DNA of 64,000 nucleotides from positions 4,340,001 to 4,404,000 of the forward strand of contig JAURUC010000001.1 in assembly GCA_030803735.1 (NCBI GenBank). Reading direction: 5' to 3'. The position numbers were made by a program, and so were the translations under genes. The notes under the pieces were generated by a model. That model was not told where the DNA came from. It saw only the letters and a program-made list of their open reading frames with translations, and made no database searches. This stretch comes from Actinopolyspora lacussalsi (GTDB lineage: Bacteria; Actinomycetota; Actinomycetes; Mycobacteriales; Pseudonocardiaceae). Below are positions 16,683 through 36,247 of the stretch, piece by piece (positions within the stretch are counted from its first letter, which is position 1; each line of letters opens with the position of its first letter).

Positions 16683-17051
<369 letters not shown>

Positions 17052-17106
17052 TCAGGGAGGTGGGGAGTGACAGGGAGCACGTGCGGGCTTGGGGGTATTG
17101 GCGACA

Positions 17107-17120
17107 ATTTCTCGGGAAAT
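17107..17120. promoter_or_regulatory. ATTTC-TCGG-GAAAT palindrome upstream of cas3
   Basis: The 14-mer ATTTCTCGGGAAAT, extended by one A/T pair, lies 49 bp before the cas3 start. It shares its arms with the dispersed cores at 4878, 9873 and 45347. A second short palindrome, CGCGG...CCGCG, follows at about 17122. Either could control cas3. Confidence 0.5.
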
Positions 17121-17168
17121 TCGCGGTGTGTTCGCCGCGAAACAGTGCGTGATATTTCGGAGGTGAAT

Positions 17169-19913
17169 GTGCCGGATCACGTGCCACCAGTGGCCGACTT
17201 ACGGTTCTGGGGCAAGGAACGCGGCCTGGGCGGCGCCCGCTACCCGGTGGCGTGCCACGGCCTCGACGCGGCGGCGATGCTGCGGTGCCTGTGGCGGGAA
17301 TATGTCTCGCCCGGCCTGCGGGCGCGGATAGCCGAACTCCTCGAACTGTCCGAGGACGAGACCCGCCGACTGCTGGAGTTCTGGGCCGCCGCCCACGACA
17401 TCGGCAAGATCACGTCCTCATTCCAGTCCCAGGTGGAGGTCCCTTCGGGCTACGACTCGGACGACGTGACCGCTCCCCACGACGAGGCCACGCAGCACGC
17501 GCTGTACCCGCTGCTGATCGAACTCGGTTATCCCGGGAGGATCGCCAAGTGGGCGGCACAGCTGCTCGGTGGGCACCACGGTCGGTTCGTCGAGCTCAAC
17601 CGGGAGTGTCGTTCCCAGGTGAAGGCCCGCGCCCTGGGGCTCGGCGACGAGGAATGGGCACGGCAGCGCGCCGACACGCTGCGCGTCTGGCGGGCGGTAC
17701 TCGAACCGCCCGTGCCCAGTAGTTTCGACACGGCCGCCGCGAACGTGGTCACCGGACTGGTGATCCTCGCCGACTGGCTGGCGAGCCGGATTCCGTACGT
17801 GCTGAAACGGTTGCCGGACGTCCCGGAACGGGGCGACGTGTCGTCGCTGAGCTCGTTCTTCCACGGCTCGCTTGCCGAGACACCGGCGGTCGTGGCTGAA
17901 GCGGGGCTCTCACCGCTGCGACTGCGGTCTGGCTCCTTCGCCGAGGAGTTCCCCGACTTCCCCGCCAACGAGCTACAACGCGACATCGCCGAGCGGCTGC
18001 CGAGCTCGCTCGGCCCCGGCGGGTTGCTCATGATCTCCGCACCCACCGGTTTCGGCAAGACGGAGACGGCGCTGCACGCGGCACGCCGCATGTCCGAGGT
18101 CACGGGCACCTCCGGCCTGTTCTTCGCGCTGCCGACGATGGCCACCACCGAGCACATGTTCAAGCGCATCGCCCGATACGTGACCACGAGAGGGAGCGAG
18201 CCCAACTCGCAGGCGATGCTGCACGGCATGGCGTGGCTGAGCCCGGTGGAAGAGATGCTGCGCGAGGAGATGAGCCGCGCCTCGGTCAGCGGTGCGGACT
18301 CGACCCTGGTGCACTGCGCGGAATGGCTGCTGGGCGCCAAGCGCGGGCTGCTGGCCGGCGCCGGAGTGGGCACTATCGACCAGGCGCTGCTCTCGGTACT
18401 GCCCACCAGGCACAACGCGCTGCGCATGTTCGCGCTGACGGGCAGGACCGTGGTGATCGACGAGGTGCACGCCTTCGACGAGTACATGCGGACCCTGCTG
18501 TGCGTGCTGCTGCGCTGGCTCGGCTACTGGAACGTGCCCGTGGTGCTGCTCTCGGCCACGCTGCCCGCCCCGCTGGCCACCCAACTCGCCGCCGCCTACC
18601 GCGGCGACAGGGCGGGAACCGAGGAACGGATCACGGTCCCCTATCCCGGTTGGGTCCACATCGGACACGGTGAGCCGGTTGTTCCGCGTCCGGTGCCGTT
18701 TCCCGACGAACAGCGTCGGAGGTTGGCGGTGTCCTCCCGTGCCGTCGAGATCCGCGACGGTGAGCCGGACCGGATGCCCGTGCTGCGGCGGGCTCTTACG
18801 CCGTTGGTCGAGGACCGGGGAACCGCGCTGGTGCTGTGCAGCACGGTGGCGCACGCCCAGCGCACGTGGCGGCTGCTGCGCGAGCACCTCGAAGGCACCG
18901 GGGTGGAGCTTCGGCTGCTGCACGCCCGGTTCCCGATGCACGTCCGCGAGTCCGTCACCGAGGAACTCACCGCGCGGTTCGGCAAACCGACCGAGGAAGA
19001 TCCGAAGGCGGGCAGAGTCCGGGAGCGCACGATCCTGGTCGCCACCCAGGTCGTGGAGCAGAGCCTCGACGTCGACTTCGACCTGGTGATAACCGATCTC
19101 GCGCCGGTCGAACTGCTGTTGCAACGCGCGGGCAGGTCGCAACGGCACCCGGCGCTGAACCCGCTGCGGCCGGAGTGGGCCGATCCGAATCGCGGTGGGA
19201 CGCGGGAACTCGTGGTGCTGACCTCGTGGAACGACAAGGGGCCGCCCGGGGCCTGGGCGGCGGTGTATCCCACCGCGAGCCTGGTTCGCGCGCACCGGTT
19301 GCTGGACGAGCACGCCGAGAGCGGCATCCGGGTGCCGGAGGACGTCCAGCGGTTGGTGGACCGGGGCAATCCGGCCGCCGGGGACAAGGGTGATCTCGAA
19401 CTGATCCGTGGTTTCGAGGAGGCGGAGACCCGCAGGCAGGCCGACGAGATGATCAAGCGCTCGGAGGGCAAGCGAGTGGGAATACCCCGACCGCGCGGGT
19501 TCAAGGCATTGAACGAGTTGTCGGACGGATTGCTTCCGGAGGAGAGGGCGAGCACGCGGTTCCAGGCCGATTCGGAGCGCGGGCTGGCGTACTTCGTGGG
19601 GGCTGACGGAGTGCCTCGGCTGGACGGGCCGGAAGGTCCTGCGTTGCCCCGGCCGAGCGACGGGAAGCTCTCCCGCGAGGAGTTGATTTCGGTGATGCGG
19701 CGTTCCGTGCCGATGCCTCGCGGGCCGTTGTCCTCGATGCCGCCCGATCGGCTGCCGAGGTTGCCCCGGCTCTGGCGCGACATCTGGCCGCTTGGGGAGC
19801 TGGTGGCGCTGGAACACCCCGTTTCCGAACATGGGAAGGCCGCTCCGGCGCGGGTTGGCGAGCGGATGTTGTGGTTGGACGACGATGTCGGGTTGGAGGA
19901 GGTGGCGGAGTGA
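17169..19913 (+). CDS. cas3: CRISPR-associated helicase/nuclease Cas3 (type I-E)
   Basis: A 914-aa effector that nicks and degrades target DNA recruited by Cascade. The HD nuclease is N-terminal, with AAAHDIGK at about residue 76 and LLGGHHGRF at about 136. The SF2 helicase follows with Walker A SAPTGFGKTE at about 290-298, DEVH at about 431, VLLSATLP and a C-terminal motif VI region (QRAGRSQRHP). Nuclease and helicase are fused in normal order and length. I start it at GTG 17169, five bases after GGAGG; the frame opens upstream at 17049 without conserved sequence. It is separated from the other cas genes by 9.3 kb containing arrays and dnaE. Confidence 0.95.
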   Translation: MPDHVPPVADLRFWGKERGLGGARYPVACHGLDAAAMLRCLWREYVSPGLRARIAELLELSEDETRRLLEFWAAAHDIGKITSSFQSQVEVPSGYDSDDVTAPHDEATQHALYPLLIELGYPGRIAKWAAQLLGGHHGRFVELNRECRSQVKARALGLGDEEWARQRADTLRVWRAVLEPPVPSSFDTAAANVVTGLVILADWLASRIPYVLKRLPDVPERGDVSSLSSFFHGSLAETPAVVAEAGLSPLRLRSGSFAEEFPDFPANELQRDIAERLPSSLGPGGLLMISAPTGFGKTETALHAARRMSEVTGTSGLFFALPTMATTEHMFKRIARYVTTRGSEPNSQAMLHGMAWLSPVEEMLREEMSRASVSGADSTLVHCAEWLLGAKRGLLAGAGVGTIDQALLSVLPTRHNALRMFALTGRTVVIDEVHAFDEYMRTLLCVLLRWLGYWNVPVVLLSATLPAPLATQLAAAYRGDRAGTEERITVPYPGWVHIGHGEPVVPRPVPFPDEQRRRLAVSSRAVEIRDGEPDRMPVLRRALTPLVEDRGTALVLCSTVAHAQRTWRLLREHLEGTGVELRLLHARFPMHVRESVTEELTARFGKPTEEDPKAGRVRERTILVATQVVEQSLDVDFDLVITDLAPVELLLQRAGRSQRHPALNPLRPEWADPNRGGTRELVVLTSWNDKGPPGAWAAVYPTASLVRAHRLLDEHAESGIRVPEDVQRLVDRGNPAAGDKGDLELIRGFEEAETRRQADEMIKRSEGKRVGIPRPRGFKALNELSDGLLPEERASTRFQADSERGLAYFVGADGVPRLDGPEGPALPRPSDGKLSREELISVMRRSVPMPRGPLSSMPPDRLPRLPRLWRDIWPLGELVALEHPVSEHGKAAPARVGERMLWLDDDVGLEEVAE

Positions 19914-20036: not shown

Positions 20037-20126
20037 GTGCTCTCCACGTGCGTGGAGGTGGACCGGGGCTGCGGGAGCAGCTCCAGGCGGCCGGTGTGTG
20101 CTCTCCACGTGCGTGGAGGTGGAGCG
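20037..20126 (+). CRISPR. CRISPR array A (2 repeats, 1 spacer)
   Basis: Two 29-bp repeats (20037-20065 and 20098-20126) flank one 32-bp spacer. The repeat starts GTGCTCTCCACG and ends GTGGAGGTGGACCG; the second copy ends GGAGCG and is the degenerate trailer repeat. A short leader, AAAACGTGG...GTTGTAACGTCGCAGG, lies at about 19995-20036. The sizes are normal for type I-E. The array is followed by the same inverted repeat and module remnant seen at the ends of other arrays. Confidence 0.92.
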
Positions 20127-20128
20127 TC

Positions 20129-20260
20129 ACGGTTATCACGGCGTGATAGCCAAGCGGTGACCAGACTGGATTCTCGGAACGGATCGACGACTTGAGTGAT
20201 CCCGCCACCGATTCGGGAAGCCGTCGACGAATGTTTGGATGTGCTGCGCATCACTGCCGT
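20129..20260 (+). pseudogene. Inverted repeat and remnant of the array-linked toxin-antitoxin module
   Basis: Directly after array A, 20131-20151 carries GGTTATCACG-G-CGTGATAGCC, the inverted repeat found after array B and the solitary repeat at 27537. From about 20160 the sequence matches the 3' end of the antitoxin-like gene at 27709 (GGATTCTCGGAACGGATCG). It then jumps to a piece of the toxin middle and ends in the last toxin codons (GTGCTGCGCATCACTGC). Large internal deletions leave no usable frame, so this is a third, dead copy of the module. Confidence 0.8.
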
Positions 20261-20286
20261 TATCAGCTCATTCGGTTAAGGTGGTG

Positions 20287-20493
20287 ATGATGAAAGGGAA
20301 GTGGCTGTTCGTGTTCGGTCTGGCCGGAATGACCGTGTCGGCTTCCGCGTTGATATTGCTCATACCGTCGCTGTTCGACTCGGGCGAGCAGGGCAACTTC
20401 TGGGGTATTGGGGTGCTCGCGTGTCTCGCCGTGGTCTTCGCGGTGGGGCTGTTGTACTGGCGTCCATCGACTTCGAGTTCGGACGGCGGATAG
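20287..20493 (+). CDS. Small two-TM membrane protein
   Basis: A 68-aa protein with two hydrophobic helices (LFVFGLAGMTVSASALILLI and IGVLACLAVVFAVGLLYW) and a Ser-rich tail. It resembles no family I know. ATG at 20287 is the first of two adjacent Met codons, with AAGG seven bases upstream. It lies between the dead module copy after array A and the frameshifted Phd/RelE pair. Small membrane proteins do occur with CRISPR and defence genes, but nothing here shows a function. Confidence 0.5.
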   Translation: MMKGKWLFVFGLAGMTVSASALILLIPSLFDSGEQGNFWGIGVLACLAVVFAVGLLYWRPSTSSSDGG

Positions 20494-20624
20494 CCCCGGG
20501 CTGGCCCCGTAAGCTCGTGGCAGAGCCCAGAGCTCCCGCTGAGCGGCGCTCTCTACAGGAGAAGCGTCCGTGAGTGTCTGTGGGGCTGCTCGAGCCTCTT
20601 CGAGTTTCGCACTGGTTTAAAACT

Positions 20625-21103
20625 ATGGAACGTGCTCTGGAGGTTCGGTTCTCCGACCTGGTCAACCATCCCAAGGACACGGTCGCCAAGATCGATGCGA
20701 GCCATAGCCGTCATCCGGGGCTGCGCGCCGTGACGACGAGGACCTGGTGCTGACCACCGCTGCCCGGGCCGAGCAGGAGAACGAGGTCGTCTCGGCCACC
20801 ACCGCACTGTTCACGGCCATGATGCGCCAGGACGGGGCCGCGCTGTCCTTACCGGTCGATGTCGTCCCCGAAGCATTTCCCCGGGTGCGTTTCCTGCCCG
20901 CCGAGGACGTCCGTGCGTTCGTGGTGGAACTCGTCGAGACACTGCGTGCCACCGAGACCATCGACAATCCGGCGCCCGTGGCGCGGGTTATCGAGTCTTG
21001 GAAACACACGGCGGAGGTGCACGCCGACCCCGAGGTGCACGCCTCGCTGACCACAGATGCCACCGACCACGGCCCGGCCACCGAACCTCCCGACAACGTA
21101 TGA
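20625..21103 (+). pseudogene. Phd-like (prevent-host-death) antitoxin, frameshifted
   Basis: From ATG 20625 the frame gives LEVRFSDLVNHPKDTVAKID, the N-terminus of the actinobacterial prevent-host-death-type antitoxins, but it ends at about 20750 in a TGA. The family's continuation (DDEDLVLTTAARAEQENEVV, then RFLPAEDVRAFVVELVETLR) lies in another frame from about 20732 to 21103. A one-base change near 20725-20735 (GCGCGCCGTGAC) explains the break. An internal restart could still make the C-terminal part, but the DNA-binding N-terminus would be lost. A broken toxin follows. Confidence 0.72.
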
Positions 21104-21360
21104 GCGGTGGCGGAACCAGGCGAAAGCAGCGCGTCGCCCCACCAGCGGCGCAGGATCTAGTGGGAGATTCGGTGCGGTACCAGTGAGACTGGTAAAGGCT
21201 GGGACGAACTGTGCCAACAGGCTCCTGCGAGGGGTGCGAACTGCCCGCGTGGCAGATCGAAGTCACCAGCGGTGGACGCGTTTGGTATCTCCTCGACGAA
21301 CAGAGCCGCACCGTGTGGCTCACTCACGCTGGTACGGGACACCCCAGGACGACCGAGTAG
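21101..21360 (+). pseudogene. RelE-like toxin remnant with several frameshifts
   Basis: Pieces of a RelE-type toxin appear in successive frames after the Phd-like gene: YERWRNQAKAA (about 21102-21134), DLVGDSVRYQ (to 21183), AGTNCAN, and then a clean C-terminus from 21211 (CEGCELPAWQIEVTSGGRVW, ending TGHPRTTE before TAG at 21358). The order fits one ancestral toxin reading frame. No single frame covers it, so it is non-functional. Confidence 0.65.
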
Positions 21361-21540
21361 TCGCGTGCCGTCCACCACGTCGTGGACGCTGGCACGAGAC
21401 GGTCTCGTGGTCCACACGAGATTCCGCTTTGGTTAGCCTCCGGCTAGATGCCGTGGAAGGTGATTTTTCGGATGGCTGGGTAACTCGATGTAGTGTTCGC
21501 TCATGCGGTGTTGCCAGGAAGCTGGTCAGTGACGCAAGGA

Positions 21541-21606
21541 GGTTTCTCGTTGGTTCGGCGGTGTGAAAACGTGCAGCGGCGGTTGTAACATCGCAGGTCG
21601 CAGAGG
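21541..21606 (+). promoter_or_regulatory. Leader of CRISPR array B
   Basis: The core GTGAAAACGTGCAGCGGCGG followed by TTGTAACATCGCAGG abuts the first repeat. Near-identical cores precede arrays C and D, and weaker ones precede A and F, so this is the conserved leader end used for transcription start and spacer acquisition. Confidence 0.75.
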
Positions 21607-22306
21607 GTGCTCTCCACGTGCGTGGAGGTGGACCGCACGCGAGGCGAGCGGCCAGAGCCTCCGTGCTGTGCTCTCCACGTGCGTGGAGGTGGACCGTGCG
21701 ACTTGTCGAGCCCCTGGTGTGCGGCCTTGTGCTCTCCACGTGCGTGGAGGTGGACCGTCAGGGACTACCGCTCGCCGCGGCGCTCGCGGGTGCTCTCCAC
21801 GTGCGTGGAGGTGGACCGGTCCGGCACCGAGAAATTGACCGAGATGCGCGGTGCTCTCCACGTGCGTGGAGGTGGACCGAGCGCCGCCGCACTCACGAGC
21901 GGCGACGTGATGTGCTCTCCACGTGCGTGGAGGTGGACCGGCGGCCCCGCCCGACGAGTTTTTCTTGACTCGGTGCTCTCCACGTGCGTGGAGGTGGACC
22001 GCTCGGCATCGGCATCCTCCCCGTGAGCCGAGCGTGCTCTCCGCGTGCGTGGAGGTGGACCGCAATTTCCCGAATGTCGAGCAGATCCGCCGACGTGCTC
22101 TCCACGTGCGTGGAGGTGGACCGTGGAATCAGCTCGTCAGGGACTTCTTCGAGTAGTGCTCTCCACGTGCGTGGAGGTGGACCGCGGTGATGGTCTCGCC
22201 GTCCAGCACGGGGGCGGTGCTCTCCACGTGCGTGGAGGTGGACCGGCAGTCGAACTTGCCTCCCGGGCGGGCCTGGAGTGCTCTCCACGTGCGTGGAGGT
22301 GGAACG
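21607..22306 (+). CRISPR. CRISPR array B (12 repeats, 11 spacers)
   Basis: Twelve 29-bp repeats lie at exact 61-bp steps from 21607 to 22278, so every spacer is 32 bp. The repeat is of the GGTGGACCG-ending type. The copy at 22034 has one change (CCGCG for CCACG), and the last copy at 22278 ends GGAACG, marking the trailer end. It is the longest array in the window. Spacers are all different by eye; their targets cannot be named without a search. Confidence 0.97.
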
Positions 22307-22335
22307 GCTCGGTTATCACGGCGTGATAACCGAGC
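22307..22335. repeat. Post-array inverted repeat (copy 1)
   Basis: GCTCGGTTATCACG and its exact reverse complement flank a single central G. As RNA it would fold into a 12-bp stem with a CGGCG loop and could end the crRNA precursor. As DNA it could be an operator for the module that starts 115 bp further on. Diverged copies follow array A (20131) and the solitary repeat (27570). Confidence 0.75.
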
Positions 22336-22449
22336 GCTGTGCTCGCCTCATCCAAGCAGAAGGTCTGTGGGAGGAGAGCTCGCGCGGTCGGGTGATTTCT
22401 GGCTGGTCAGGGGTGCGGTGCGGTTGGTGGTGTCGGCATACTTCGTGCT

Positions 22450-22731
22450 GTGTTCTGGATGAATTCTGGGCCCCTGGTGGTCGAGCGTGACCCGGACGAT
22501 GTTCGGGAGGCGTTGCGGTTGTACGGCGAGCCGGATGAGCTCATGAAGTTCGATCTGGAGCGGGAGTACGGGTTCACCGAGGAGCGGTTCACGGAGTGGT
22601 GGGCCACTGCCACCAGTGCCGCGAACCCGCCGACCGAGCACGATCGGGAAATGATGCGCCGCCTGTTCGAGGAAGGCGACGACACTGGCTTCTACATCCA
22701 GAATGACGACGGAAGTTTCACACTACAGTGA
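22450..22731 (+). CDS. Antitoxin-like small acidic protein of array-linked module, copy 1
   Basis: A 93-aa acidic protein (DPDDVREALRLYGEPDELMK and on) with a helical pattern and no recognised DNA-binding motif. It may belong to the small DUF6247-like actinobacterial proteins, but I am unsure. The GTG at 22450 lies seven bases after CATACT, so it could be read from a leaderless mRNA; an ATG at 22459 is the alternative. It overlaps the RelE/ParE-like gene by GTGA, the usual antitoxin-toxin order. The first 78 residues are almost identical to those of copy 2 at 27709, but the C-termini differ. Confidence 0.7.
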   Translation: MFWMNSGPLVVERDPDDVREALRLYGEPDELMKFDLEREYGFTEERFTEWWATATSAANPPTEHDREMMRRLFEEGDDTGFYIQNDDGSFTLQ

Positions 22732-22967
22732 CGGCTCAATACCTCATTCGCTGGAGCGAACACGCCAGTCAGACGTTCAGAGATCTTCCGCGACCAACCC
22801 AGAACGCGATCAGAAAGTGTACGAACGAACTCTGCGCCGATCCGCACACGGGAACCTATGACAAAGGTCGTGACCAGTGGAAAGCTGCCTTTGACGGTGG
22901 TTTGGTCATGTACACCGTTGGTGAACGGATGTTGTTGATCGATGTGCTGCGCATCACTGCGCTCTGA
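22728..22967 (+). CDS. RelE/ParE-like toxin of array-linked module, copy 1
   Basis: A 79-aa protein with the RelE/ParE pattern: IRWSEHASQTFRDLPRPTQN helix region, then LCADPHTGTYDKGRDQWKAA and the strand pair GGLVMYTVGERMLLIDVLRI. The usual role is mRNA cleavage at the ribosome or gyrase inhibition; the sequence does not say which. The start is GTG 22728, overlapping the upstream stop. Copy 2 at 28011 keeps the C-terminal 40 residues nearly unchanged but differs more at the N-terminus, which may separate partner specificity. Confidence 0.75.
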   Translation: MTAQYLIRWSEHASQTFRDLPRPTQNAIRKCTNELCADPHTGTYDKGRDQWKAAFDGGLVMYTVGERMLLIDVLRITAL

Positions 22968-23217
22968 GGTATCTCGAGGAATCCCAGCACGGCGTTCGTG
23001 GGACTGTGTGTGATGTTCGGTGGGGAACTGTCAAGGTCCGGTGTGATTCGGTTCCGGTGAAGTATCGCGGAAACCGGTGTGCTCGGCCTCCTGCGGCTGG
23101 TTCGTGGATACTGTGGTGCGGTCCGGCTGTGGCCTGTGATCGTGGGGTGGAGGTGTCTCGTTGGTTTGGCGGCGTGAAAACGTGCAGCGGCGGTTGTAAC
23201 ATCGCAGTTCGCAGAGG
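22968..23217 (+). promoter_or_regulatory. Long leader of CRISPR array C
   Basis: About 250 bp between the toxin stop and the first repeat align with 28248-28500 before array D, for example in GGCTGGTTCGTGGATACTGT and in the terminal GTGAAAACGTGCAGCGG core. The length is unusual for a leader; the left part may instead be shared module flank. Confidence 0.7.
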
Positions 23218-23551
23218 GTGCTCTCCACGTGCGTGGAGGTGAACCGGGCATCGCGTTCACCGCGGTCATCGGTGAGCGGTGCTCTCCACGTGCGTGGAGG
23301 TGAACCGTCCCTCGTCTACGCCCAGGACGGCGTGGTCAAGTGCTCTCCACGTGCGTGGAGGTGAACCGGTGCCGTCGACGCCGAGCACGGGCAGGGTGAT
23401 GTGCTCTCCACGTGCGTGGAGGTGAACCGCAGCTGCGCGCCCTGGTGGTGCTGCTGGCCGGGTGCTCTCCACGTGCGTGGAGGTGAACCGATCTTCCACA
23501 TCTTCTCGGCGTCGATGCGGGCGTGCTCTCCACGTGTGTGGAGGTGAACCG
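23218..23551 (+). CRISPR. CRISPR array C (6 repeats, 5 spacers)
   Basis: Six 29-bp repeats at 61-bp steps (23218, 23279, 23340, 23401, 23462, 23523) with 32-bp spacers. This array uses the variant repeat ending GGTGAACCG instead of GGTGGACCG, as in array F. The last repeat has one change (GTGTGTGG). The dnaE start lies only 71 bp downstream, with no inverted repeat or module here. Confidence 0.96.
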
Positions 23552-23622
23552 CCCCGTGAGCGAGGACCGCGCGCGGGGACTAACGTTGCCCCGTACGTAG
23601 TGGGAGCCTCGAAGGGGACGCC

Positions 23623-26600
23623 GTGAGCCAGAGCCAGTTCGTGCATCTTCACGTGCACACCGAGTTTTCGATGCTGGATGGTGCGGCCAAGCATGACAAG
23701 CTGTTCAGCGAGGTCGCTCGGCTGGAGCAACCCGCTGTGGCTATGACCGATCACGGCAACATGTTCGGCGCGCACAGCTTCTACACCCGGGCGCAGAAGG
23801 CCGGGGTCAAGCCGATCATCGGGATCGAAGCCTACGTGGCTCCCGCCAGTCGTCATCACAAGAAGCCGGTGTTCTGGGGTAGCCGGGCGACTGGGAAGAA
23901 GGACGCTGACGACAAGGAAGTCGGCGGGGACGTCTCCGGCGGCGGTGCCTACACGCACATGACGTTGCTCGCGCAGAACTCGACCGGGCTGCGCAACCTG
24001 TTCACGCTGTCGAGCATAGCCAGCTTCGAGGGGTTCTTCCGCAAGCCGCGGATGGATCGGGAGCTGATCAGCCAGTACTCCGAGGGGATCATCGCCACGA
24101 GCGGGTGCCTGGCGGGCGAGGTGCTCACCCGGCTGCGGCTGGGTCAGAAACAGGAAGCGTTGCAGGCGGCCTCGGACTACCGCGACATCTTCGGGCAGGA
24201 CCGGTTCTTCATCGAGGTCATGGACCACGAGATCGAGATGGAGCGTGGTATCCGGCCGGAACTGCTCGACATCGCCAACCGGCTGGGGCTGCGGACGGTG
24301 GCCACCAACGACAGCCACTACGTCACCGATGACCAGGCCGGTCACCACGATGCGCTGCTGTGCCTGCAAACCAAGGCGACACTGGCGGACACGAACCGGT
24401 TCCAGTTCCAGGGCGGCGGGTACCACATCAAATCCGCCGAGGACATGCGCGATTACTGGGACTCCGAAGTCCCGGGGGCGTGCGATGCCACGCTGGCGAT
24501 CACCGAGATGGTCGAGGACTACGAGGAGGCGTTCGCCGAGACCAATCGGATGCCGCAGGCGAAGATCGAGCCGGGTCGAACCGAGGAAGAGGTACTGCGG
24601 GAGGAGATCGAAAGCTACATCCCCTCGCGCTTTCCCGAGGGGTTGACCCAGCGGTACCGCGAGCAGTTGGACTGGGAACTGAAGGTCATCACCGAGAAGG
24701 GCTTCAGCTCCTACTTCCTGGTGGTCGGCGACATGGTGCGCTGGGCCAAGGAACAGGGCATCCGGGTCGGTCCCGGGCGAGGCAGCGCGGCCGGGGCGCT
24801 GCTGAGCTACATCCTGCACATCATCGACCTCGACCCCATCAAGCACGAGCTGCTGTTCGAGCGGTTCCTCAACCCCGAGCGCAACTCCCCACCGGACATC
24901 GACATCGACTTCGATGAACGCCGTCGCGAGGAAGTAATCGCCTACGCCAAGGACAAGTACGGCGAGGAGAACTTCGCGAAGGTCATCACCTACGGCACTA
25001 TCAAGACTAAGGCGGCGTTCAAGGACGCGGCGCGGGTGCATCTGGGCCAGCCCGGTTTCGCGGTCGCCGATCAGTTCTCCAAAGCGCTGCCCGCCCCCGC
25101 CGAGGCCGAGGACATTCCGCTGTCGGGCATCGTCGACCCGGAGCACGAGCGCTACCCGGAAGCGTCCGAGGCGCGGGCGCTGATCGAGAACGACGAGACG
25201 ATGGCCAAGATCTTCGAGACCGCCCGCGGACTCGAAGGTCTGGTCCGCAACGCCGGGGTGCACGCCTGCGCGCACATCATCAGCCGCGAGCCGCTGTTGG
25301 ACGTGCTGCCGTTGTGGAAGCGCGACGACGGCGAGATCATCACCGGCTGGGACGGGCCGCAGTGTGAGGCCGTCGGTCTGCTGAAGATCGACATTCTCGG
25401 CCTGAACTTCATGACGATCATCGACGACACCGTCAAGATGATCAAGGCCAACCACGGTGTCGAGATCGAACCGCTGTCGCTGCCGCTGGATGACTCCGGC
25501 ACGTTCGACACGCTGGCGAGTGGTGACAGTCTGGGCCTGTTCCAGATCGAAGGCGGCGGGATGCAAACGCTGCTGAAGCGGATGCGGCCGAGTGGGTTCG
25601 ACGACCTCGTGGCTTGCGTATCGCTGTATCGACCCGGCCCGATGGACGTCAACGCGCACCTGGACTACGCCGACCGCAAGAACGGGCGCAAGCAGGTCGA
25701 GGCGATCCACCCCGAGCTGGCCGACGCGCTGGAGCCCATCCTCGGCGACACCTACGGGCTGATCGTGTACCAGGAGCAGGTGATGCGAATCGCCCAGCAG
25801 CTCGCCGGGTACACGCTCGGACAAGCGGATTCGCTGCGCAAGGCGATGGGCAAGAAGAAGAAGGACGTCATTGCCGCGGAGCACCCCAAGTTCCTCAGCG
25901 GGATGGAAGAACGCGGGTTCACCCGCGACTCCGCGCAGGCGTTGTGGGATGTGATCCTGCCGTTCGCGGGATACGCGTTCAACAAGTCGCACGCGGCGGC
26001 CTACGGGCTGGTGTCGTACTGGAGCGGCTACCTCAAGACGCACTACCCGGCCGACTACATGGCCGCGCTGCTGACCGCGTTCTCGCACAACAAGGACAAA
26101 ACAGCGGCGTACCTGTCGGAATGCCGCCGGATGGGGATCACCGTGCTGCCGCCGGATGTGACCGAATCCGGGGTGATGTTCAGCGCCACCCCGGACGGGC
26201 GGATCCGCGTCGGGCTCGGAGCGGTCCGCAACGTCGGCACCGGCGTCGCCGAGAGCATCATCGCCGCCCGCAATGAGACCGACTCCGGCACGTTCACCGG
26301 ATTCGCGGATTTCCTGTCCAAGGTGCCGCCGCACGTGTGCCAGAAACGCGTCGTGGAATCCCTGACGAAAGCGGGCGCGTTCGACGAGCTCGGCTACACC
26401 CGCCAAGGGCTCGCGGCGGTGCACGAGCACGCGGTCGAAGCGATGACGAGCCTGAAGAAGTCCGAGTCGCTCGGCCAGTTCGACCTGTTCGGCGGGGGCA
26501 ACGACGCCGCCGCCGAGGAAGCCAGCCCGCTGGCGCATCTCGCGATCGACGACGAGGAGTGGCCGCGCAAGCAGAAACTCGCCTACGAACGCGAGATGCT

Positions 26601-27213
26601 GGGACTATACGTCTCGGCCCACCCCCTCGACGGGGCCGAGGGGATTCTGCGCAAACACGCCAAACCCATCGCCACGCTGAAGAACGAGGCACCCGCCGAA
26701 GGGGAGGTCCACGTGGCGGGGCTGATCACCAACGTGGACAAGCGGGTGAACAAGAAGGGTGAGCCGTGGGCGATCGTCACGGTCGAGGACTACGACTCCT
26801 CGATCGAGGCGCTGTTCTTCCCCAAGTCCTACTCGGTGGTCGGCGAGGAGCTGGTCACCGACAGCGCCGTGGCGGTCAAGGGGCGCGTGAACTATCGGGA
26901 CGAGACCATGTCGATCTTCGCGGACGGGCTGGTCACCCTCGACATCACCTCGGCGGAACACGACCCCACCCCTGTCGCGGAACGGGGCGGGGCGTTCGTG
27001 CTGCGGGCCGACGCGTTCAAGCTCGACAAGGAGACGGCGCTGGACCTGCGCACCAGCCTGCGGGCGCACGCCGGACCGACCCCGGTGCGGGTGATCGTGG
27101 CCGGAACCCGCGAGGGAAGGGTGGAACTTCCCGACTACCCGGTCGAGATCTCCCCCGGGCTCATGGGAGAGATCAAGGGGTTGCCCGGAATCACCGTGCA
27201 ATCCGCCGGGTGA
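23623..27213 (+). CDS. dnaE: DNA polymerase III alpha subunit (DnaE1-type), inside the CRISPR locus
   Basis: A full-length 1196-aa C-family replicative polymerase. The PHP domain (residues 1 to about 270) keeps HLHVHTEFSMLDG, MTDHGNMFG and NDSHY metal-binding residues, as in the proofreading actinobacterial DnaE1. The palm has GPGRGSAAG and the catalytic PDIDIDF (about 424-430). The HhH and OB regions extend to the C-terminus. The segment normally reading DFLGLRNLT is DILGLNFMT here (about 592), a change in a nearly universal motif, suggesting a diverged paralogue. The start is GTG 23623, with AGGGGA upstream. It stands alone between arrays, without the usual lspA/rluD neighbours. Confidence 0.93.
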   Translation: MSQSQFVHLHVHTEFSMLDGAAKHDKLFSEVARLEQPAVAMTDHGNMFGAHSFYTRAQKAGVKPIIGIEAYVAPASRHHKKPVFWGSRATGKKDADDKEVGGDVSGGGAYTHMTLLAQNSTGLRNLFTLSSIASFEGFFRKPRMDRELISQYSEGIIATSGCLAGEVLTRLRLGQKQEALQAASDYRDIFGQDRFFIEVMDHEIEMERGIRPELLDIANRLGLRTVATNDSHYVTDDQAGHHDALLCLQTKATLADTNRFQFQGGGYHIKSAEDMRDYWDSEVPGACDATLAITEMVEDYEEAFAETNRMPQAKIEPGRTEEEVLREEIESYIPSRFPEGLTQRYREQLDWELKVITEKGFSSYFLVVGDMVRWAKEQGIRVGPGRGSAAGALLSYILHIIDLDPIKHELLFERFLNPERNSPPDIDIDFDERRREEVIAYAKDKYGEENFAKVITYGTIKTKAAFKDAARVHLGQPGFAVADQFSKALPAPAEAEDIPLSGIVDPEHERYPEASEARALIENDETMAKIFETARGLEGLVRNAGVHACAHIISREPLLDVLPLWKRDDGEIITGWDGPQCEAVGLLKIDILGLNFMTIIDDTVKMIKANHGVEIEPLSLPLDDSGTFDTLASGDSLGLFQIEGGGMQTLLKRMRPSGFDDLVACVSLYRPGPMDVNAHLDYADRKNGRKQVEAIHPELADALEPILGDTYGLIVYQEQVMRIAQQLAGYTLGQADSLRKAMGKKKKDVIAAEHPKFLSGMEERGFTRDSAQALWDVILPFAGYAFNKSHAAAYGLVSYWSGYLKTHYPADYMAALLTAFSHNKDKTAAYLSECRRMGITVLPPDVTESGVMFSATPDGRIRVGLGAVRNVGTGVAESIIAARNETDSGTFTGFADFLSKVPPHVCQKRVVESLTKAGAFDELGYTRQGLAAVHEHAVEAMTSLKKSESLGQFDLFGGGNDAAAEEASPLAHLAIDDEEWPRKQKLAYEREMLGLYVSAHPLDGAEGILRKHAKPIATLKNEAPAEGEVHVAGLITNVDKRVNKKGEPWAIVTVEDYDSSIEALFFPKSYSVVGEELVTDSAVAVKGRVNYRDETMSIFADGLVTLDITSAEHDPTPVAERGGAFVLRADAFKLDKETALDLRTSLRAHAGPTPVRVIVAGTREGRVELPDYPVEISPGLMGEIKGLPGITVQSAG

Positions 27214-27223
27214 GCTGTCGAGA

Positions 27224-27256
27224 ACGGGGCTGCCCGCGTTGTGCGGGTAGCCCCGT
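27224..27256 (+). terminator. Hairpin terminator after dnaE
   Basis: A 14-bp stem (ACGGGGCTGCCCGC with GCGGGTAGCCCCGT, one G-U pair) and a GTTGT loop lie 11 bp after the dnaE stop. It would also end transcription from the small antisense genes at 27275-27477. Confidence 0.8.
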
Positions 27257-27274
27257 CGTGGGTCGTGCGCGGGT

Positions 27275-27394
27275 TCAGCGGGGTATCGATCCCGTCCCGT
27301 TGCGCAAATCCCCGTTGCACAAATCGCAGTGATCGTCGCGACGACGATCCCACCCGTTACCGTCGCAGTCCGGGCAAGTCAGCGTATCCGGCAT
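27275..27394 (-). CDS. Tiny Cys-rich zinc-ribbon-like protein 2
   Basis: A 39-codon frame, MPDTLTCPDCDGNGWD followed by HCDLCNGDLRNGTG. It has two CxxCxG units of the kind seen in DnaJ-type zinc fingers. The ATG at 27394 shares TGATG with the stop of the small gene upstream, so the pair is translationally coupled. Four Cys in two pairs are enough to bind one zinc. It lies antisense between the dnaE terminator and the solitary repeat. Short length limits certainty, but the coupled Cys pattern in two adjacent frames is unlikely to be chance. Confidence 0.6.
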   Translation of the reverse strand: MPDTLTCPDCDGNGWDRRRDDHCDLCNGDLRNGTGSIPR

Positions 27395-27477
27395 CAGATC
27401 TTGCCGCTTCCGGAACAGGTCGCGCAGTCCGGATCATTTCCGGGGCAGTTTGGGCAGGGCTCGCCTTCCATACCCAT
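27394..27477 (-). CDS. Tiny Cys-rich zinc-ribbon-like protein 1
   Basis: A 27-codon frame, MGMEGEPCPNCPGNDPD followed by CATCSGSGKI, with four Cys in two CxxC pairs and a Gly-rich turn as in DnaJ Cys-rich repeats. The ATG at 27477 has AGGAGA seven bases upstream, a very good ribosome-binding site. It overlaps the second small gene by TGATG. No function can be given; small zinc ribbons of this kind occur as free-standing proteins in actinomycetes. Confidence 0.62.
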   Translation of the reverse strand: MGMEGEPCPNCPGNDPDCATCSGSGKI

Positions 27478-27536
27478 GACAGATTCTCCTTACCCGTAAC
27501 GATCGCTGTTCGCATTCAGCATCGCGGGTCGCGGAG

Positions 27537-27565
27537 GTGCTCTCCGCGTGCGTGGAGGTGGAGCG
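27537..27565 (+). CRISPR. Solitary CRISPR repeat
   Basis: One 29-bp repeat with two changes (CCGCG, ending GGAGCG), preceded by a weak leader-like stretch (CATCGCGGGTCGCGGAG). It is followed by the inverted repeat and an intact module, exactly as a last repeat would be. It is best read as the end of a lost or transposed array. Confidence 0.85.
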
Positions 27566-27569
27566 GCAC

Positions 27570-27590
27570 GGTTATCACGGCGTGATAGCC
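27570..27590. repeat. Post-array inverted repeat (copy 2)
   Basis: GGTTATCACG-G-CGTGATAGCC, with one mismatch between arms, follows the solitary repeat at the same distance as copy 1 follows array B. Confidence 0.72.
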
Positions 27591-27708
27591 GAGCGCCGTG
27601 CTCGCCTCATCTGGGAGAGGGTCTGTGACGTGGCGAGTTCGCGCGGTCGGGTGATTTCTGGCTGGTCAGGGGTGCGGTGCGGCTGGTGGTGTCGGCATAC
27701 TTCGTGCT

Positions 27709-28011
27709 GTGTTCTGGATGAATTCTGGGCCCCTGGTGGTCGAGCGTGACCCGGAAGACATTCGGGAGGCGTTGCGGTTGTACGGCGAGCCGGATGAGCT
27801 CATGAAGTTCGATCTGGAGCGGGAGTACGGGTTCACCGAGGAGCGGTTCACGGAGTGGTGGGCCACTGCCACCAGTGCCGCGAACCCGCCGACCGAGCAC
27901 GATCGGGAAATGATGCGCCGCCTGTTCGAGGACGGGGACCAGACCGGATTCTCGGAACGGATCGACGACTTGAGCGATCCCACCACCCCCCCGATTTGGT
28001 TGCGGCACTGA
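27709..28011 (+). CDS. Antitoxin-like small acidic protein of array-linked module, copy 2
   Basis: A 100-aa paralogue of the gene at 22450. The first 78 residues are nearly identical at protein and DNA level, then the C-terminus changes (FSERIDDLSDPTTPPIWLRH). The start choices are the same: GTG 27709, or ATG 27718. Its 3' end is the version also found in the remnant after array A, so at least two module types have circulated here. It overlaps the toxin-like gene by one base (TGATG). Confidence 0.7.
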   Translation: MFWMNSGPLVVERDPEDIREALRLYGEPDELMKFDLEREYGFTEERFTEWWATATSAANPPTEHDREMMRRLFEDGDQTGFSERIDDLSDPTTPPIWLRH

Positions 28012-28247
28012 TGGCTCGATACGCGATTCGCTGGGGCGAACAAGCCGATCGGACTTACAACGACCTCCCGCCACGGATTCAAAAAGCTGTCGACGAACGA
28101 TTGGACGAGCTGCGCGTCGACCCGCGCACCGGAACTTACGACAAAGGTCGGGACCAGTGGAAAGCCGCTTTCCACGGTGGTTTGGTCATGTACACCGTCG
28201 GCGAGCGGATGCTGTTGATCGACGTGCTGCGCATCACCGCGCTCTGA
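28011..28247 (+). CDS. RelE/ParE-like toxin of array-linked module, copy 2
   Basis: A 78-aa RelE/ParE-type protein (YAIRWGEQADRTYNDLPPRI, then the KGRDQWKAAFHGGLVMYTVG region shared with copy 1). The N-terminal half is diverged from copy 1 while the C-terminal half is nearly identical. ATG at 28011 overlaps the antitoxin stop. It lies directly upstream of the long leader of array D. Confidence 0.75.
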   Translation: MARYAIRWGEQADRTYNDLPPRIQKAVDERLDELRVDPRTGTYDKGRDQWKAAFHGGLVMYTVGERMLLIDVLRITAL

Positions 28248-28500
28248 GATCCCGCGAGGATTTTCGACAAGGCACTCGCGGGTTTGTGCGGGATGCTCAT
28301 GGATGAGCCTTGCCAAAGTCCGGTGCGGTTCGGTTCCGTTGAAGAGTCACGGAAACTGGTCGGGTCCGGCCTCCTGTGGCTGGTTCGTGGATACTGTGGT
28401 GCGGTCCGGCCGTTGGCTCGTGATCGTGGCTGGAGGTTTCTTGTTGGTTTGGCGGTGTGAAAACGTGCAACGAGGGTTGTAACGTCGCAGGTCGCAGAGG
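28248..28500 (+). promoter_or_regulatory. Long leader of CRISPR array D
   Basis: About 250 bp homologous to the leader of array C, ending in GTGAAAACGTGCAACGAGG then TTGTAACGTCGCAGG directly before the first repeat. Confidence 0.7.
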
Positions 28501-29012
28501 GTGCTCTCCACGTGCGTGGAGGTGGACCGCCCGCCATCGACGGGCTCGTGGACGCCGACGCGTGCTCTCCACGTGCGTGGAGGTGGACCGCGGGGAGCAC
28601 TGCCCGGACAGTAGCACGACGAGTGCTCTCCACGTGCGTGGAGGTGGACCGCCCGCCATCGACGGGCTCGTGGACGCCGACGCGTGCTCTCCACGTGCGT
28701 GGAGGTGGACCGCGGGGAGCACTGCCCGGACAGTAGCACGACGAGTGCTCTCCACGTGCGTGGAGGTGGACCGCCGCGCTGTCGAAATACCTGGCGGCGC
28801 AAGCCGTGCTCTCCACGTGCGTGGAGGTGGACCGGCGACATCGACGGTGTAGCCAGCCGCGGCGAAGTGCTCTCCACGTGCGTGGAGGTGGACCGTAGTC
28901 ACAGGCGCCCCACAGGCCCACGTTTTGGTGCTCTCCACGTGCGTGGAAGTGGACCGCCTGCGAGCGGCTGGGACTGGTCACCGCTCCCGTGCTCTCCACG
29001 TGCGTGGAGGTA
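28501..29012 (+). CRISPR. CRISPR array D (9 repeats, 8 spacers, one spacer pair duplicated)
   Basis: Repeats of the GGTGGACCG type start at 28501, 28562, 28623, 28684, 28745, 28806, 28867, 28928 and 28989. Spacers are 32 bp. Spacers 1 and 2 (28530-28561, 28591-28622) recur exactly as spacers 3 and 4, so a two-unit block was duplicated. The copy at 28928 has one change, and the last copy loses homology after GGAGGT. The cas operon starts 234 bp further on. Confidence 0.97.
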
Positions 29013-29159
29013 GTACTACCACTACTCGAAGCTTTCCGCGTGCCGCTAACCACGGATCATCGGCTGGCCGCTCCTGTCGTAGTCACTTCCGGCCGTGATT
29101 GTCGGGCCCTTGGTGTAGCCTCCCCCGGAAAGTGATGAATCGTATTCACTCTGCTACTT

Positions 29160-29177: not shown

Positions 29178-29245
29178 CACGGCGAGCGGTCCACTGGGGG
29201 AGAAGTGGGGGTGGGCCGGTCATTGGACTGTCCTGAGAGGACGTG

Positions 29246-30871
29246 ATGTCACCGAGTTTCGACCTGGCGACACGGGGATTCTGCGAGGTCCGCTGGCTGC
29301 GCGACCCGCCGGAGGGCATCGAGCCCGACGAGCCGGTCAACCTGCGCACGCTGCTGCTGCACGCCCACGACATCGCTGACGTCGAGGTGTCCCCACCACC
29401 GACACTGGCCGGATTCCTGCGGATCCTCACGGTGCTCGCGGGAAGGATCACCGCGCTGGCACCCCCGGACGCGACCGACCAGTACGAGGACATCGAGGAC
29501 TGGCAGCAGGCCCGGGAACGGCACTGGCACGCGGGAAGATTCGACCCTGACGCGGTCGAGCGCTACTTCGCCGAGCACGTGGGCCGCTTCGAGCTGTTCC
29601 ACACCGCCACACCCGAAGGTGCCCCACTTTTCCTGCAGGACCACCGTCTGCTGGAGCAGTGCCGCACGACCAAGGGCGAGTCCGCCAGTTCCGGCGTCAA
29701 CAAACTCGTACTCGGCCGCGCCGCCGGGCAGGCTTTCGTCTGGCACAGCCACACCACCGACCGCGAGCCGCCCTCGGTCACCGCCCCGGAGGCGTTCTGG
29801 GCGTTGCTGTCCTGGCTGTTCTACGGTGTCCCCGGCCGCTGCACCCCGCGTCGTGTCGGCGAGACCAACGCCGCCGACACCAAGGCGGGGCCGCTGCGCG
29901 ACAGCGTCTCGTTCCACCCGGTGGGCCGCAGCCTCTTCGAGACCCTGCTCGCGAGCGTGCCCTACTACGACCCCTGCGAGAACGACCGGGCACCGTGGGA
30001 GGAACCGCCGCCCGATCCGCTCGCCGTACCGCCGCGACCGGAAGGTCTCGCGCGGGTGCTGACCGGCCGGTTCCGGCACGCCCTGCTGCTCAGCCCCACA
30101 GCCGACGGCGAGGCGGTGGAAGACGCTCGGATCACCTGGGCCTGGCGGCGCGAACACGGCCAGGTGGACGACCCGCACGTGCTCTACCAGTACTCTGGCA
30201 GCGACGAGAAACTCACGAAACAACCCCGGTCGGCCACCGCCGACCGCGCCGTCTGGCGCGACCTGGACGTGCTGACCGGAGCGTTCGACAGCGAACAGTG
30301 GGACGATCAGCGCCGCCAACGACCTGCCGTGTTCGGCCTGCTCGACGATCTGGTCGAGGACGAGCCCGAGCCACCGGTCACCCGCGTTCGGGTACTGGGG
30401 TTCGACCAGGACCGTTCCCAAGCCAAGGACCGCCAGTACTTCGCGGGCAGCACCCCGGCACTGCTGGACACCTGGCGCTGTCGTGACGAGCACCGCTGGG
30501 TGAGGCTGGTCAGGACCCGCCAGGCGGCCGAGTACACCGGCGGGACGTTGGAGCGAGCGCTGGCCGCCGCCTGGCGCGAGATCGTCGGCAGAACCGACCC
30601 CAAGAAGCGCGGCAACGGCGTGCCCTGGACCCAACCGGCGATGGCGCGCTACTGGGCCGACGCGGAGCAGGAGTTCCACCGGGAGTTCGGCGAGGCAGCG
30701 ACCGCGTCGGACGAACCCGTCGCCAACAGGTTCATCCGTCGCGCGCGACAGGCGTTCTCCGAGGTGACCGAACCCTACGAACGCCGTCCGTCCGACATAG
30801 CCGTGCTCGAACGACACCGAGCCCAGCTCTCGAAGGGATGGCGCTCCAGCAACGGAGGACAGGATTCATGA
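29246..30871 (+). CDS. casA: Type I-E Cascade large subunit Cas8e (CasA/Cse1)
   Basis: A 541-aa protein starting at ATG 29246 after GAGAGGA. It has the Cse1 N-terminal layout (LRTLLLHAHDIADV, PPTLAGFLRILTVLAG, the DHRLLEQC region) and a C-terminal four-helix part. Cas8e recognises the PAM and recruits Cas3. It is the first gene of a seven-gene operon in which each gene overlaps or nearly touches the next. The PAM cannot be deduced from this sequence. Confidence 0.92.
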   Translation: MSPSFDLATRGFCEVRWLRDPPEGIEPDEPVNLRTLLLHAHDIADVEVSPPPTLAGFLRILTVLAGRITALAPPDATDQYEDIEDWQQARERHWHAGRFDPDAVERYFAEHVGRFELFHTATPEGAPLFLQDHRLLEQCRTTKGESASSGVNKLVLGRAAGQAFVWHSHTTDREPPSVTAPEAFWALLSWLFYGVPGRCTPRRVGETNAADTKAGPLRDSVSFHPVGRSLFETLLASVPYYDPCENDRAPWEEPPPDPLAVPPRPEGLARVLTGRFRHALLLSPTADGEAVEDARITWAWRREHGQVDDPHVLYQYSGSDEKLTKQPRSATADRAVWRDLDVLTGAFDSEQWDDQRRQRPAVFGLLDDLVEDEPEPPVTRVRVLGFDQDRSQAKDRQYFAGSTPALLDTWRCRDEHRWVRLVRTRQAAEYTGGTLERALAAAWREIVGRTDPKKRGNGVPWTQPAMARYWADAEQEFHREFGEAATASDEPVANRFIRRARQAFSEVTEPYERRPSDIAVLERHRAQLSKGWRSSNGGQDS

Positions 30872-31656
30872 CCGAGCACTCCGACAACCGCACCAGGCGG
30901 GAGCGGCTCTGGGAGCACGCGGCCCCCATGGTGCGAGAGCTGCGTAATCGGGTACTGACCAATCCGGGTAGGCGGGCGTCACTGCGAACCGCTGTCGGCC
31001 GCGAACCCGGCGACCCCCGCACGTTCCGTGCCTACGGGGAAGTGACCCGATTCCTGCCGGAACGCGCCGACTACGCCACCGAACGCGCTTTCCTGGCCGT
31101 GGCCGCGCTGATCTGCGCACAGCCGCGTGCCGCCAGGGACGCCGACATGCGGATCGGGAAGAAGGCGAAGTCCGGCGAGAACGAATCGGATTCGGAGGAC
31201 GGAGCCGCCGCCGAACCGGAAACGGAAGAGGCTGATACGGAGGGGACGGGCGCGGACGCCGCGTCGAGCCCCGAGATGACCGGGGGAACCGAACCGGACG
31301 AGCGACAGCACGGTGGGAAGTCCTCCGACGAGCGCACCCCGTCCCGCTCGCTGGGCTGGAGCTGTGCCGAGGCGGCGCTGACCGACAGGAACAGCGGCAA
31401 GACCTTGGAACCCCGCCTGCACGCCATGTGCCGGATGGACGGTGCCGGGCTGCACCGCCAGCTGCCGCGCGTGGTGAACATGCTGCGCACCAAGGGCGTT
31501 TACATCGACTGGACCACGCTGGCCGTGGACCTGGCCGGTTGGGACCGCGCCAACCGGGCGGTCACGCGCAAGTGGTTGCGGGACTACCACCGCCGCCTCG
31601 CCGCGGCCCAGCGCGACAACGACAATCACGAGAGCACGCAGAAGGAGACCGCGTGA
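30868..31656 (+). CDS. casB: Type I-E Cascade small subunit Cse2 (CasB) with acidic insertion
   Basis: A 262-aa Cse2. ATG at 30868 has GGAGGA eight bases upstream and overlaps cas8e by ATGA. The N-terminal helices (RLWEHAAPMVRELRNRVLTN) and the C-terminal helical part (LHRQLPRVVNMLRTKGVYID, WLRDYHRRLAAA) are normal. Between them about 60 residues rich in Glu, Asp, Ser and Gly (from GENESDSEDG to GGKSSDER) form a disordered-looking insertion, making it longer than usual for the family. Cse2 forms the dimer along the crRNA belly. Confidence 0.9.
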   Translation: MTEHSDNRTRRERLWEHAAPMVRELRNRVLTNPGRRASLRTAVGREPGDPRTFRAYGEVTRFLPERADYATERAFLAVAALICAQPRAARDADMRIGKKAKSGENESDSEDGAAAEPETEEADTEGTGADAASSPEMTGGTEPDERQHGGKSSDERTPSRSLGWSCAEAALTDRNSGKTLEPRLHAMCRMDGAGLHRQLPRVVNMLRTKGVYIDWTTLAVDLAGWDRANRAVTRKWLRDYHRRLAAAQRDNDNHESTQKETA

Positions 31657-35222: not shown

Positions 35223-35227
35223 GAGCC

Positions 35228-36052: not shown

Positions 36053-36247
36053 TTATTCGAAGCGGTTGGTTTTGAGGGCGGTGATGAAGGCTGTCCACTG
36101 TGTTCGGGTGGTGGTGAGGTGTCCGGCTGTGCGGTTCTTGGTGTCTCGGATGGCCGTGCCGTTGGTTAACCGGCCGACTTCGACGCAGGCGTTGCCGGTG
36201 GAGCTGCGGGTGGGTTTGCGCCAGTTGGTGGGATGTTCAGCTGTCAC
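36053..36247 (-). CDS. DUF397 protein (partner of Scr1-like regulator)
   Basis: A 64-aa DUF397 protein: NWRKPTRSSTGNACVEVGRL, then AIRDTKN and TQWTAFITALKTNRF. GTG at 36247 has AGGAG six bases upstream and overlaps the end of the XRE gene by 11 bp. DUF397 proteins are found beside XRE/DUF5753 regulators in actinomycetes and are thought to act with them, in part like toxin-antitoxin pairs. Confidence 0.9.
   Translation of the reverse strand: MTAEHPTNWRKPTRSSTGNACVEVGRLTNGTAIRDTKNRTAGHLTTTRTQWTAFITALKTNRFE

Follow-up and report, generated by a model that had tools for sequence, protein, structure and literature searches.

Why does a small gene pair of toxin-antitoxin (TA) type stand at the end of one array of clustered regularly interspaced short palindromic repeats (CRISPR) after another: does it guard the arrays, or is it kept for its own sake and copied along with them? 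The question is raised by a type I-E CRISPR-Cas locus of the salt-loving soil bacterium Actinopolyspora lacussalsi (G000). The window, i.e., the whole stretch of 64,000 nucleotides that was analysed, is G000:C1:4340001-4404000 of a single-contig 5.03-Mb genome; positions are those of the window unless a contig or fetched locus (L) is named. The sequence-only reading had described the pair as a module that is tied to array ends, is copied with trailer and leader, and could guard the arrays. The physical tie and the joint copying proved real and conserved; the pair, a putative member of an unnamed type II TA family, is most likely a passenger that is kept for its own sake and was multiplied by recombination among the arrays. 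Relatives referred to are G005 (Actinopolyspora righensis DSM 45501, listed with G000 under one species), G001 (A. alba), G007 (A. mzabensis), G009 (A. xinjiangensis), G006 (A. mortivallis), G002 (A. biskrensis) and G003 of the same genus.

Modules at the array ends

The repeats of the window (R1) with their 61-nt periodicity, the D4 family of leader copies and the homology of the blocks could all be recovered mechanically (coordinates in Table 1). Directly after array A, array B and a solitary repeat stands the same palindrome (core ATCACGGCGTGAT), the pattern of which, allowing up to 3 mismatches, has in G000 only these three occurrences. After array B and the solitary repeat follow two small overlapping genes and, about 0.2 kb further on, a 70-nt leader that opens the next array; these gene pairs are the intact modules m1 (antitoxin AT1, toxin TX1) and m2 (AT2, TX2). 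At the end of array A the palindrome is followed by pieces of an antitoxin tail and of a toxin, i.e., a doubly deleted module (mA) that is also present in G005, so that modules were found, as the sequence-only reading had counted them, at three of the seven array ends. That reading had further described the blocks 22307-23217 and 27566-28500 as homologous end to end, which holds on alignment; the identity, however, is uneven. Compared with the D4 unit of array B (leader plus repeat, 103 nt), the units of arrays C and D were 91% and 93% identical, those of arrays A, E and F 65%, 61% and 70%.

The solitary repeat looks like a decayed array, since a 16-nt leader remnant stands before it and, in G005, G001 and G003, a longer stretch of leader (judged by eye). 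Further R1-like repeats of G000, at 2.858-2.861 Mb and 4.475 Mb, were accompanied by neither the palindrome nor an antitoxin match. Because the copies are duplicates and all pair-bearing genomes share one orthologous locus, the link between module and arrays is one association, not three.

Toxin and antitoxin proteins

The antitoxin gene comes first, with overlapping or adjacent reading frames, and this order is identical in all eight intact copies. TX1 and TX2 scored 18.3 and 19.7 bits against PF05016 (ParE_toxin), below the cut-off of 23. The AlphaFold2 model of TX2 (13-row alignment) reached a predicted local distance difference test (pLDDT) value of 91.8 and matched best PDB entry 3g5o (template modelling (TM) scores 0.87/0.79; E 0.45 by sequence alone), followed by many RelE, YoeB and ParE chains; the predicted fold of the toxin is that of RelE. 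Entry 3g5o is RelBE2 of M. tuberculosis (Rv2865-Rv2866), which resembles the pair in this predicted toxin fold, in size, in the antitoxin-first order and in the overlap of the genes, but differs in that the antitoxin here is DUF6247-like and without a good PDB match, and in that the toxin stays under the PF05016 cut-off.

Neither AT1 nor AT2 had a Pfam match. At the loci of distant toxin paralogues in the genus the partner gene is of one kind (14 of 14), and both partners examined passed the cut-off of PF19760 (DUF6247). The antitoxin profile compared with the profile of eight such partners gave an hhalign probability of 96.1 over 67 columns, and the pattern REAL...WW..A..A..PPTE...GD is common, wholly or partly, to the CRISPR-linked antitoxin and the DUF6247-type partners. 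The CRISPR-linked antitoxin is, however, about 13 residues shorter and fails the Pfam cut-off (an antitoxin paralogue in L041 scored 12.6 bits, the cut-off being 26.9), so that it is filed as a divergent relative of DUF6247 only. Its model has helices at residues 12-72 and a low-confidence tail at residues 78-97 (mean pLDDT 74.6); a fold search with it gave no PDB match better than E 2.7. In RelE-type systems such an antitoxin tail usually wraps the toxin. PADLOC, run on six proteins, returned no result. By its anatomy (gene order, overlap, predicted RelE fold) the pair is a putative DUF6247-like/RelE type II TA system, which supports the protein-type assignment of the sequence-only reading. 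It shares gene order, toxin family and antitoxin profile similarity with the DUF6247-RelE-like pairs of Pseudonocardiaceae and relatives.

Conservation and uneven divergence of the copies

An intact pair was found in six genomes (G000, G005, G001, G003, G009 and G007), by flank comparison always at one orthologous locus (left flank, the window up to 17080; right flank, the window from 41007 or 45376 onward). G000 and G005 carry m1, m2 and the mA remnant, G001 carries m2 and a fragment, and G003, G009 and G007 carry one copy each. A leader and repeat lie downstream of seven of the eight intact copies, and a repeat with recognisable palindrome lies upstream of six, G009 having only a repeat with 6 mismatches and G007 nothing. 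Antitoxin and toxin are open in all six genomes. The mean nonsynonymous (dN) and synonymous (dS) substitution rates over 15 pairs were 0.030 and 0.282 for AT2, and 0.043 and 0.476 for TX2; pairwise dN/dS with G007 was 0.13-0.17 for AT2 and 0.04-0.09 for TX2. Both genes are under purifying selection.

An observation new to this analysis is that m1 and m2 are alike at their ends and sharply divergent in the antitoxin tail and the N-terminal half of the toxin. Regarding the two copies of G000, identity was 28/30 in the palindrome, 211/215 (98%) in the N-terminal part of the antitoxin, 31/55 (56%, plus 21 gap columns) in the antitoxin tail, 87/131 (66%) in the N-terminal and 96/107 (90%) in the C-terminal half of the toxin, and 64/73 (88%) in the leader. 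The value for the antitoxin N-terminal part exceeds that between orthologues of G000 and G005 (95-96%). In G005 the upstream region is 89% identical between copies vs 72% between m2 orthologues, and the palindromes are alike at 29 of 29 positions, with a common 1-nt deletion that is absent from the other six copies compared. Antitoxin tail and toxin N-terminal half, on the other hand, are 56-66% identical between paralogues and 95-97% between orthologues. A tree of this middle segment splits m1 from m2 with a support of 1.000, and a tree of the antitoxin N-terminal part groups the two G000 copies (0.789). The divergent segment is likely a specificity cassette that includes the mutual recognition surface of the two proteins. 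The mA remnants of G000 and G005 have an m2-type tail and are decayed, and none of the six genomes has two intact copies of the same tail type. One intact copy per tail type would be expected of addiction if cross-neutralised copies decay freely, the independent cases being few.

Distribution of the families

The protein searches reached relatives sharing exact 5-residue words. At E 0.001, five relatives of the antitoxin were found among 5.8 billion proteins, the three named ones all from Actinopolyspora. Within the genus, antitoxin matches occur in seven of ten genomes; R1 repeats occur in six, which are the six with an open pair. Within the order, seven of 397 genomes gave antitoxin matches, six being Actinopolyspora and one a weak partial match elsewhere (E 3.5e-4); G003 was not among them, presumably being outside that draw. 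A scan of genome contigs gave nine loci, all in Actinopolyspora, but says little on the wider distribution because it used one narrow peptide pattern; the 397-genome search is the better guide. Within the searches made, close relatives of the pair are limited to Actinopolyspora.

The sequence-only reading had proposed as a check that both proteins be looked for within 1 kb of CRISPR trailers, and the outcome is split. For 11 of the 14 antitoxin matches of the genus, an R1 or R2 repeat (up to 5 mismatches; R2 is the repeat of another array type, GTCTATCCCCGCGTGCGCGGGGCCTGC) is no more than 1 kb away. The exceptions are the G001 fragment (1.5 kb), the open copy of G007 (about 6 kb) and a distant copy of G006, which had no repeat within the 20 kb fetched. 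Regarding the 22 toxin matches, seven of the eight close ones lie within 1 kb of a repeat and none of the 14 distant ones does; an R2 repeat was seen 3.0-4.1 kb from distant toxins in two of 12 regions fetched (L067, L068), R2 not having been searched genome-wide.

Outside the genus, a survey of DUF6247 started from 41 rows, of which nine were dropped (four of G412 and one of G400 because their contigs were short or ended nearby, four below the cut-off), leaving 32 rows in 29 regions of 13 genomes. An array of at least three repeats was present in one of the 29 regions (8 kb from the gene) and in one of 20 control regions drawn from eight of these genomes; in this small sample only the Actinopolyspora subfamily is visibly CRISPR-linked. 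A related RelE-like gene adjoins the DUF6247 gene in four of the 29 regions (E 0.01). Among 5.39 million open-licence papers none on DUF6247 was found, so that a TA family with a DUF6247-like antitoxin and a RelE-fold toxin is documented here with no paper found under its domain name.

Origin and retention of the module

The explanation that fits best, and which is considered probable, is a self-preserving TA passenger that hitch-hikes on array recombination. A type II TA operon would have become lodged between two co-directional type I-E arrays in an ancestor of Actinopolyspora. The flanking arrays and leaders are direct repeats, recombination between which would duplicate, delete and homogenise the interval, and it is because of this recombination that the module would travel with the trailer palindrome and the leader: one founding link, then duplication and conversion between arrays. 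The pair would be kept for its own sake, the loss of a copy without an equivalent elsewhere in the cell presumably being toxic. Copies would persist while they differ, as m1 and m2 do, and a copy such as mA, with its m2-type tail, would be free to decay. Stabilisation of the arrays would be a by-product. If so, an addiction module spreads inside a CRISPR locus with the arrays themselves as recombination substrates, and the locus is a natural test of whether duplicated TA pairs survive only once cross-neutralisation is lost.

Several points weigh against this explanation. The antitoxin N-terminal part of G005 is 93% identical between copies, which is not above the value for orthologues and shows that conversion was not at work throughout. 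The rule of one intact copy per tail type is drawn from a single remnant that can be read (mA, shared by G000 and G005 and probably the result of one event), the remnant of G001 being without a tail and impossible to type, and the insulation of m1 from m2 is read only from their divergence. The antitoxin model is weak, the other four models having mean pLDDT values of 47-65 against 74.6 for the best. The retention of the pair in G007, away from arrays, would also fit a host function unrelated to addiction. Finally, hitch-hiking at this locus leaves unexplained an antitoxin paralogue without toxin that lies 0.34 kb from an R2 repeat in two genomes (G005:C2, L039 16368-17230, with a stop codon; G001:C32, L041 8880-9500); the gene between the two is DUF397 as judged by eye.

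A rather doubtful alternative is plain co-residence, in which TA pairs and CRISPR arrays share a variable hot spot for defence genes and are adjacent without further mechanism. It draws on the other content of the locus, which includes a second TA-like pair (Y), an XRE-DUF5753/DUF397 pair and a DUF3800 gene, and on toxin relatives on two Mycobacterium plasmids (37-42% identity, one overlapping an annotated DUF6247 gene), but by itself it leaves the exact register of repeat, palindrome, module and leader and the concerted evolution of the module ends unexplained. Mobile-element cargo was rejected: apart from the two plasmid matches of the toxin, no antitoxin relative was found in viral contigs and no toxin relative in phages.

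The antitoxin-like gene of pair Y reaches 27.5 bits for DUF6247 (cut-off 26.9); its downstream gene (120 aa) has no Pfam match and looks RelE-like by eye. The pair is whole only in G009 (L046 14253-15091, between two arrays, genes overlapping); G000 and G005 have it in broken form, in G001 the downstream gene is split over two frames, and in G007 no match to that gene was found. The pair is absent from G003, where the leader and repeat after m2 run straight into the array that follows Y in G009, a junction as expected from a crossover between two arrays or leaders. Pair Y thus serves as a control: being placed between arrays is not enough to preserve a TA-like pair, and Y, which may have been inactive beforehand, did not stop the collapse.

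The guarding role suggested by the sequence-only reading, in which the module is selected to keep the arrays or the cas locus as a protein analogue of CreTA, is not supported and is improbable. Modules at several array ends, purifying selection on both genes, the proximity of most antitoxin matches in the genus to a repeat and the toxin-less paralogue beside R2 would all suit such a role; yet the module is kept in six of six genomes and the cse1-cas2 operon was found beside it, in the stretches fetched, in G000 only. In the same stretches of the other five, cas3 is broken or absent (interrupted by an internal stop at residue 727 in G005, in fragments in G003 and G009, and without a match in G001 and G007), and the arrays at the locus are reduced to 1-3 repeats each. 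Because cas3 remnants stand in the same place, a full ancestral CRISPR-Cas locus is likely, with at least two losses on an unrooted flank tree that does not group G005 with the conspecific G000. As G001, G003, G005 and G009 have a type I-E Cas7 elsewhere in the genome, only G007, the genome of which gave no I-E Cas7 match, is decisive, and it speaks against a dependence on Cascade. The closest repeat to its intact pair is some 6 kb off, a distance that spans a contig join inferred from homology; retention therefore does not require arrays. The loss of pair Y in G003 and the equal counts of arrays in the DUF6247 survey (one region each among 29 and 20 controls) point the same way. Since the pair has outlived the cas genes here, adjacency of TA and CRISPR, even if repeated and conserved, need not mean guarding.

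An RNA guide of the CreTA kind was likewise rejected. Trailer pseudo-spacers compared with both modules (palindrome left out) gave no match beyond shuffles (best 17-19 of 32 positions; shuffled means about 17, maxima 19-20), in a comparison that could miss a short partial match of the CreA kind. The 36 spacers of the window had no match in m1 or m2 in a short BLAST search of the window. They were also compared with the fetched loci of the genus; among the matches listed, one spacer of array B has a 13-nt match in the m2 antitoxin gene of G005 (12 nt in that of G009) and another an 18/19-nt match to dnaE, both taken as chance without a proper test. CreTA, an RNA-based TA element that is treated with CreR and CrePA in a review of CRISPR-linked TA elements (PMC12737573), is alike in being nested in a type I CRISPR-Cas locus, as far as the parts of that review covered here go; it differs in that both parts of the present module are protein genes without a guide-like match to them, and in that the module is open in G007 without an I-E Cas7 match. 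The same parts of the review contain no protein pair at array ends, and no published protein TA system tied to array ends was found in the titles and abstract beginnings of the open-licence literature.

As little weight as to the guarding role is given to a recombination lock. In this reading a crossover between co-directional arrays would delete the content of the gap, and arrays would stay separate only where that content is costly to lose (an insulated TA pair, an essential gene such as dnaE, or the cas operon); TA pairs would thereby stabilise multi-array loci, and the divergence of duplicated pairs, with a new antitoxin tail and toxin N-terminal half, would be under selection because it gives every gap a lock of its own. 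The gaps B-C, C-solitary repeat, solitary repeat-D and D-E do hold m1, dnaE, m2 and the cas operon, but the A-B gap holds only mA and pair Y, both broken, and a small unplaced reading frame, the pair in the E-F gap is of uncertain kind, and G003 lost Y. The reading is kept alive, as a testable remainder, by a possible affinity of the close antitoxin family to arrays, if that family has indeed reached a second array type (R2). A regulatory or stress role for the host, with a RelE-like activity for growth control and an accidental CRISPR position, is also unlikely, being favoured by the pair of G007 and its low dN/dS and opposed by an empty crude promoter scan and a palindrome that is unconserved as a structure (both weak arguments).

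The palindrome, considered as a terminator or operator, was also rejected as an element that the TA pair needs. It ends about 123 nt upstream of AT1, no terminator-like site was found at it, and a search at the open pairs of G007 and G009 did not reveal it. Its predicted RNA hairpin is not conserved (strong in G000, z -2.9 for m1 and -2.4 for m2; weak in G003, -1.5, and G005, -0.8).

Other features of the locus

Table 1. Features of the CRISPR-Cas locus of G000 (window positions)
Feature	Position	Strand	Family
cas3	17049-19913		
CRISPR array A, 2 repeats, trailer repeat at 20098	20037-20126	+	
Imperfect palindrome after array A	20127-20155		
Module mA remnant (m2-type antitoxin tail, toxin fragments, two deletions)	20156-20270	+	
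Degenerate pair Y (antitoxin-like gene carrying a DUF6247 domain, split over two frames; internal deletion in the downstream gene)	20625-21360	+	
Leader of array B	21538-21606	+	D4
CRISPR array B, 12 repeats, trailer repeat at 22278	21607-22306	+	
Perfect 29-nt palindrome after array B	22307-22335		
AT1, putative antitoxin of m1, 90 aa	22459-22731	+	
TX1, putative RelE-like toxin of m1, 79 aa, GTG start overlapping AT1 stop	22728-22967	+	
Leader of array C	23149-23217	+	D4
CRISPR array C, 6 repeats	23218-23551	+	
dnaE, xenologous copy between arrays, outside the module	23623-27213	+	
Solitary repeat (decayed array with leader remnant)	27537-27565	+	
Imperfect palindrome after solitary repeat	27566-27594		
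AT2, putative antitoxin of m2, 97 aa	27718-28011	+	
TX2, putative RelE-like toxin of m2, 78 aa	28011-28247	+	
Leader of array D	28432-28500	+	D4
CRISPR array D, 9 repeats, last degenerate	28501-29017	+	
Type I-E operon cse1-cse2-cas7-cas5-cas6-cas1-cas2	29243-35584	+	
CRISPR array E	35603 (start)		
CRISPR array F	38619 (start)		

In the cas operon, cas5 and cas2 were named by position and the other genes by profile. A second type I-E Cas7 is encoded in G000 at G000:C1:4098460-4099392; the arrays may therefore be served by more than one I-E system. In array D, two repeat-spacer units are tandemly duplicated (28501-28744; spacers 28530/28591 again at 28652/28713), which is a trace of recombination within the array. 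The E-F gap (36053-37091) holds the XRE-DUF5753 gene and the DUF397 gene on the minus strand. Pairs of this type have been proposed as TA systems, and one is presented as a positive regulator of antibiotic production, according to the parts of PMC6262351 covered here; given that report, the gap was not counted as a further TA system.

Only one full-length dnaE was found in each of G000 and G005 (E <= 1e-100), and it is situated within the CRISPR locus, 71 nt downstream of array C. Seven other genomes of the genus have a dnaE that is 62-63% identical to it, and that of G006 is 68% identical; the closest sequences are those of Salinifilum (75% over 89%) and Saccharopolyspora (about 70%). At its ancestral site in G000 (C1, about 415.3 kb; L158 5338-5610), dnaE is reduced to its final 91 codons; the native replicase gene seems to have given way to a foreign one.

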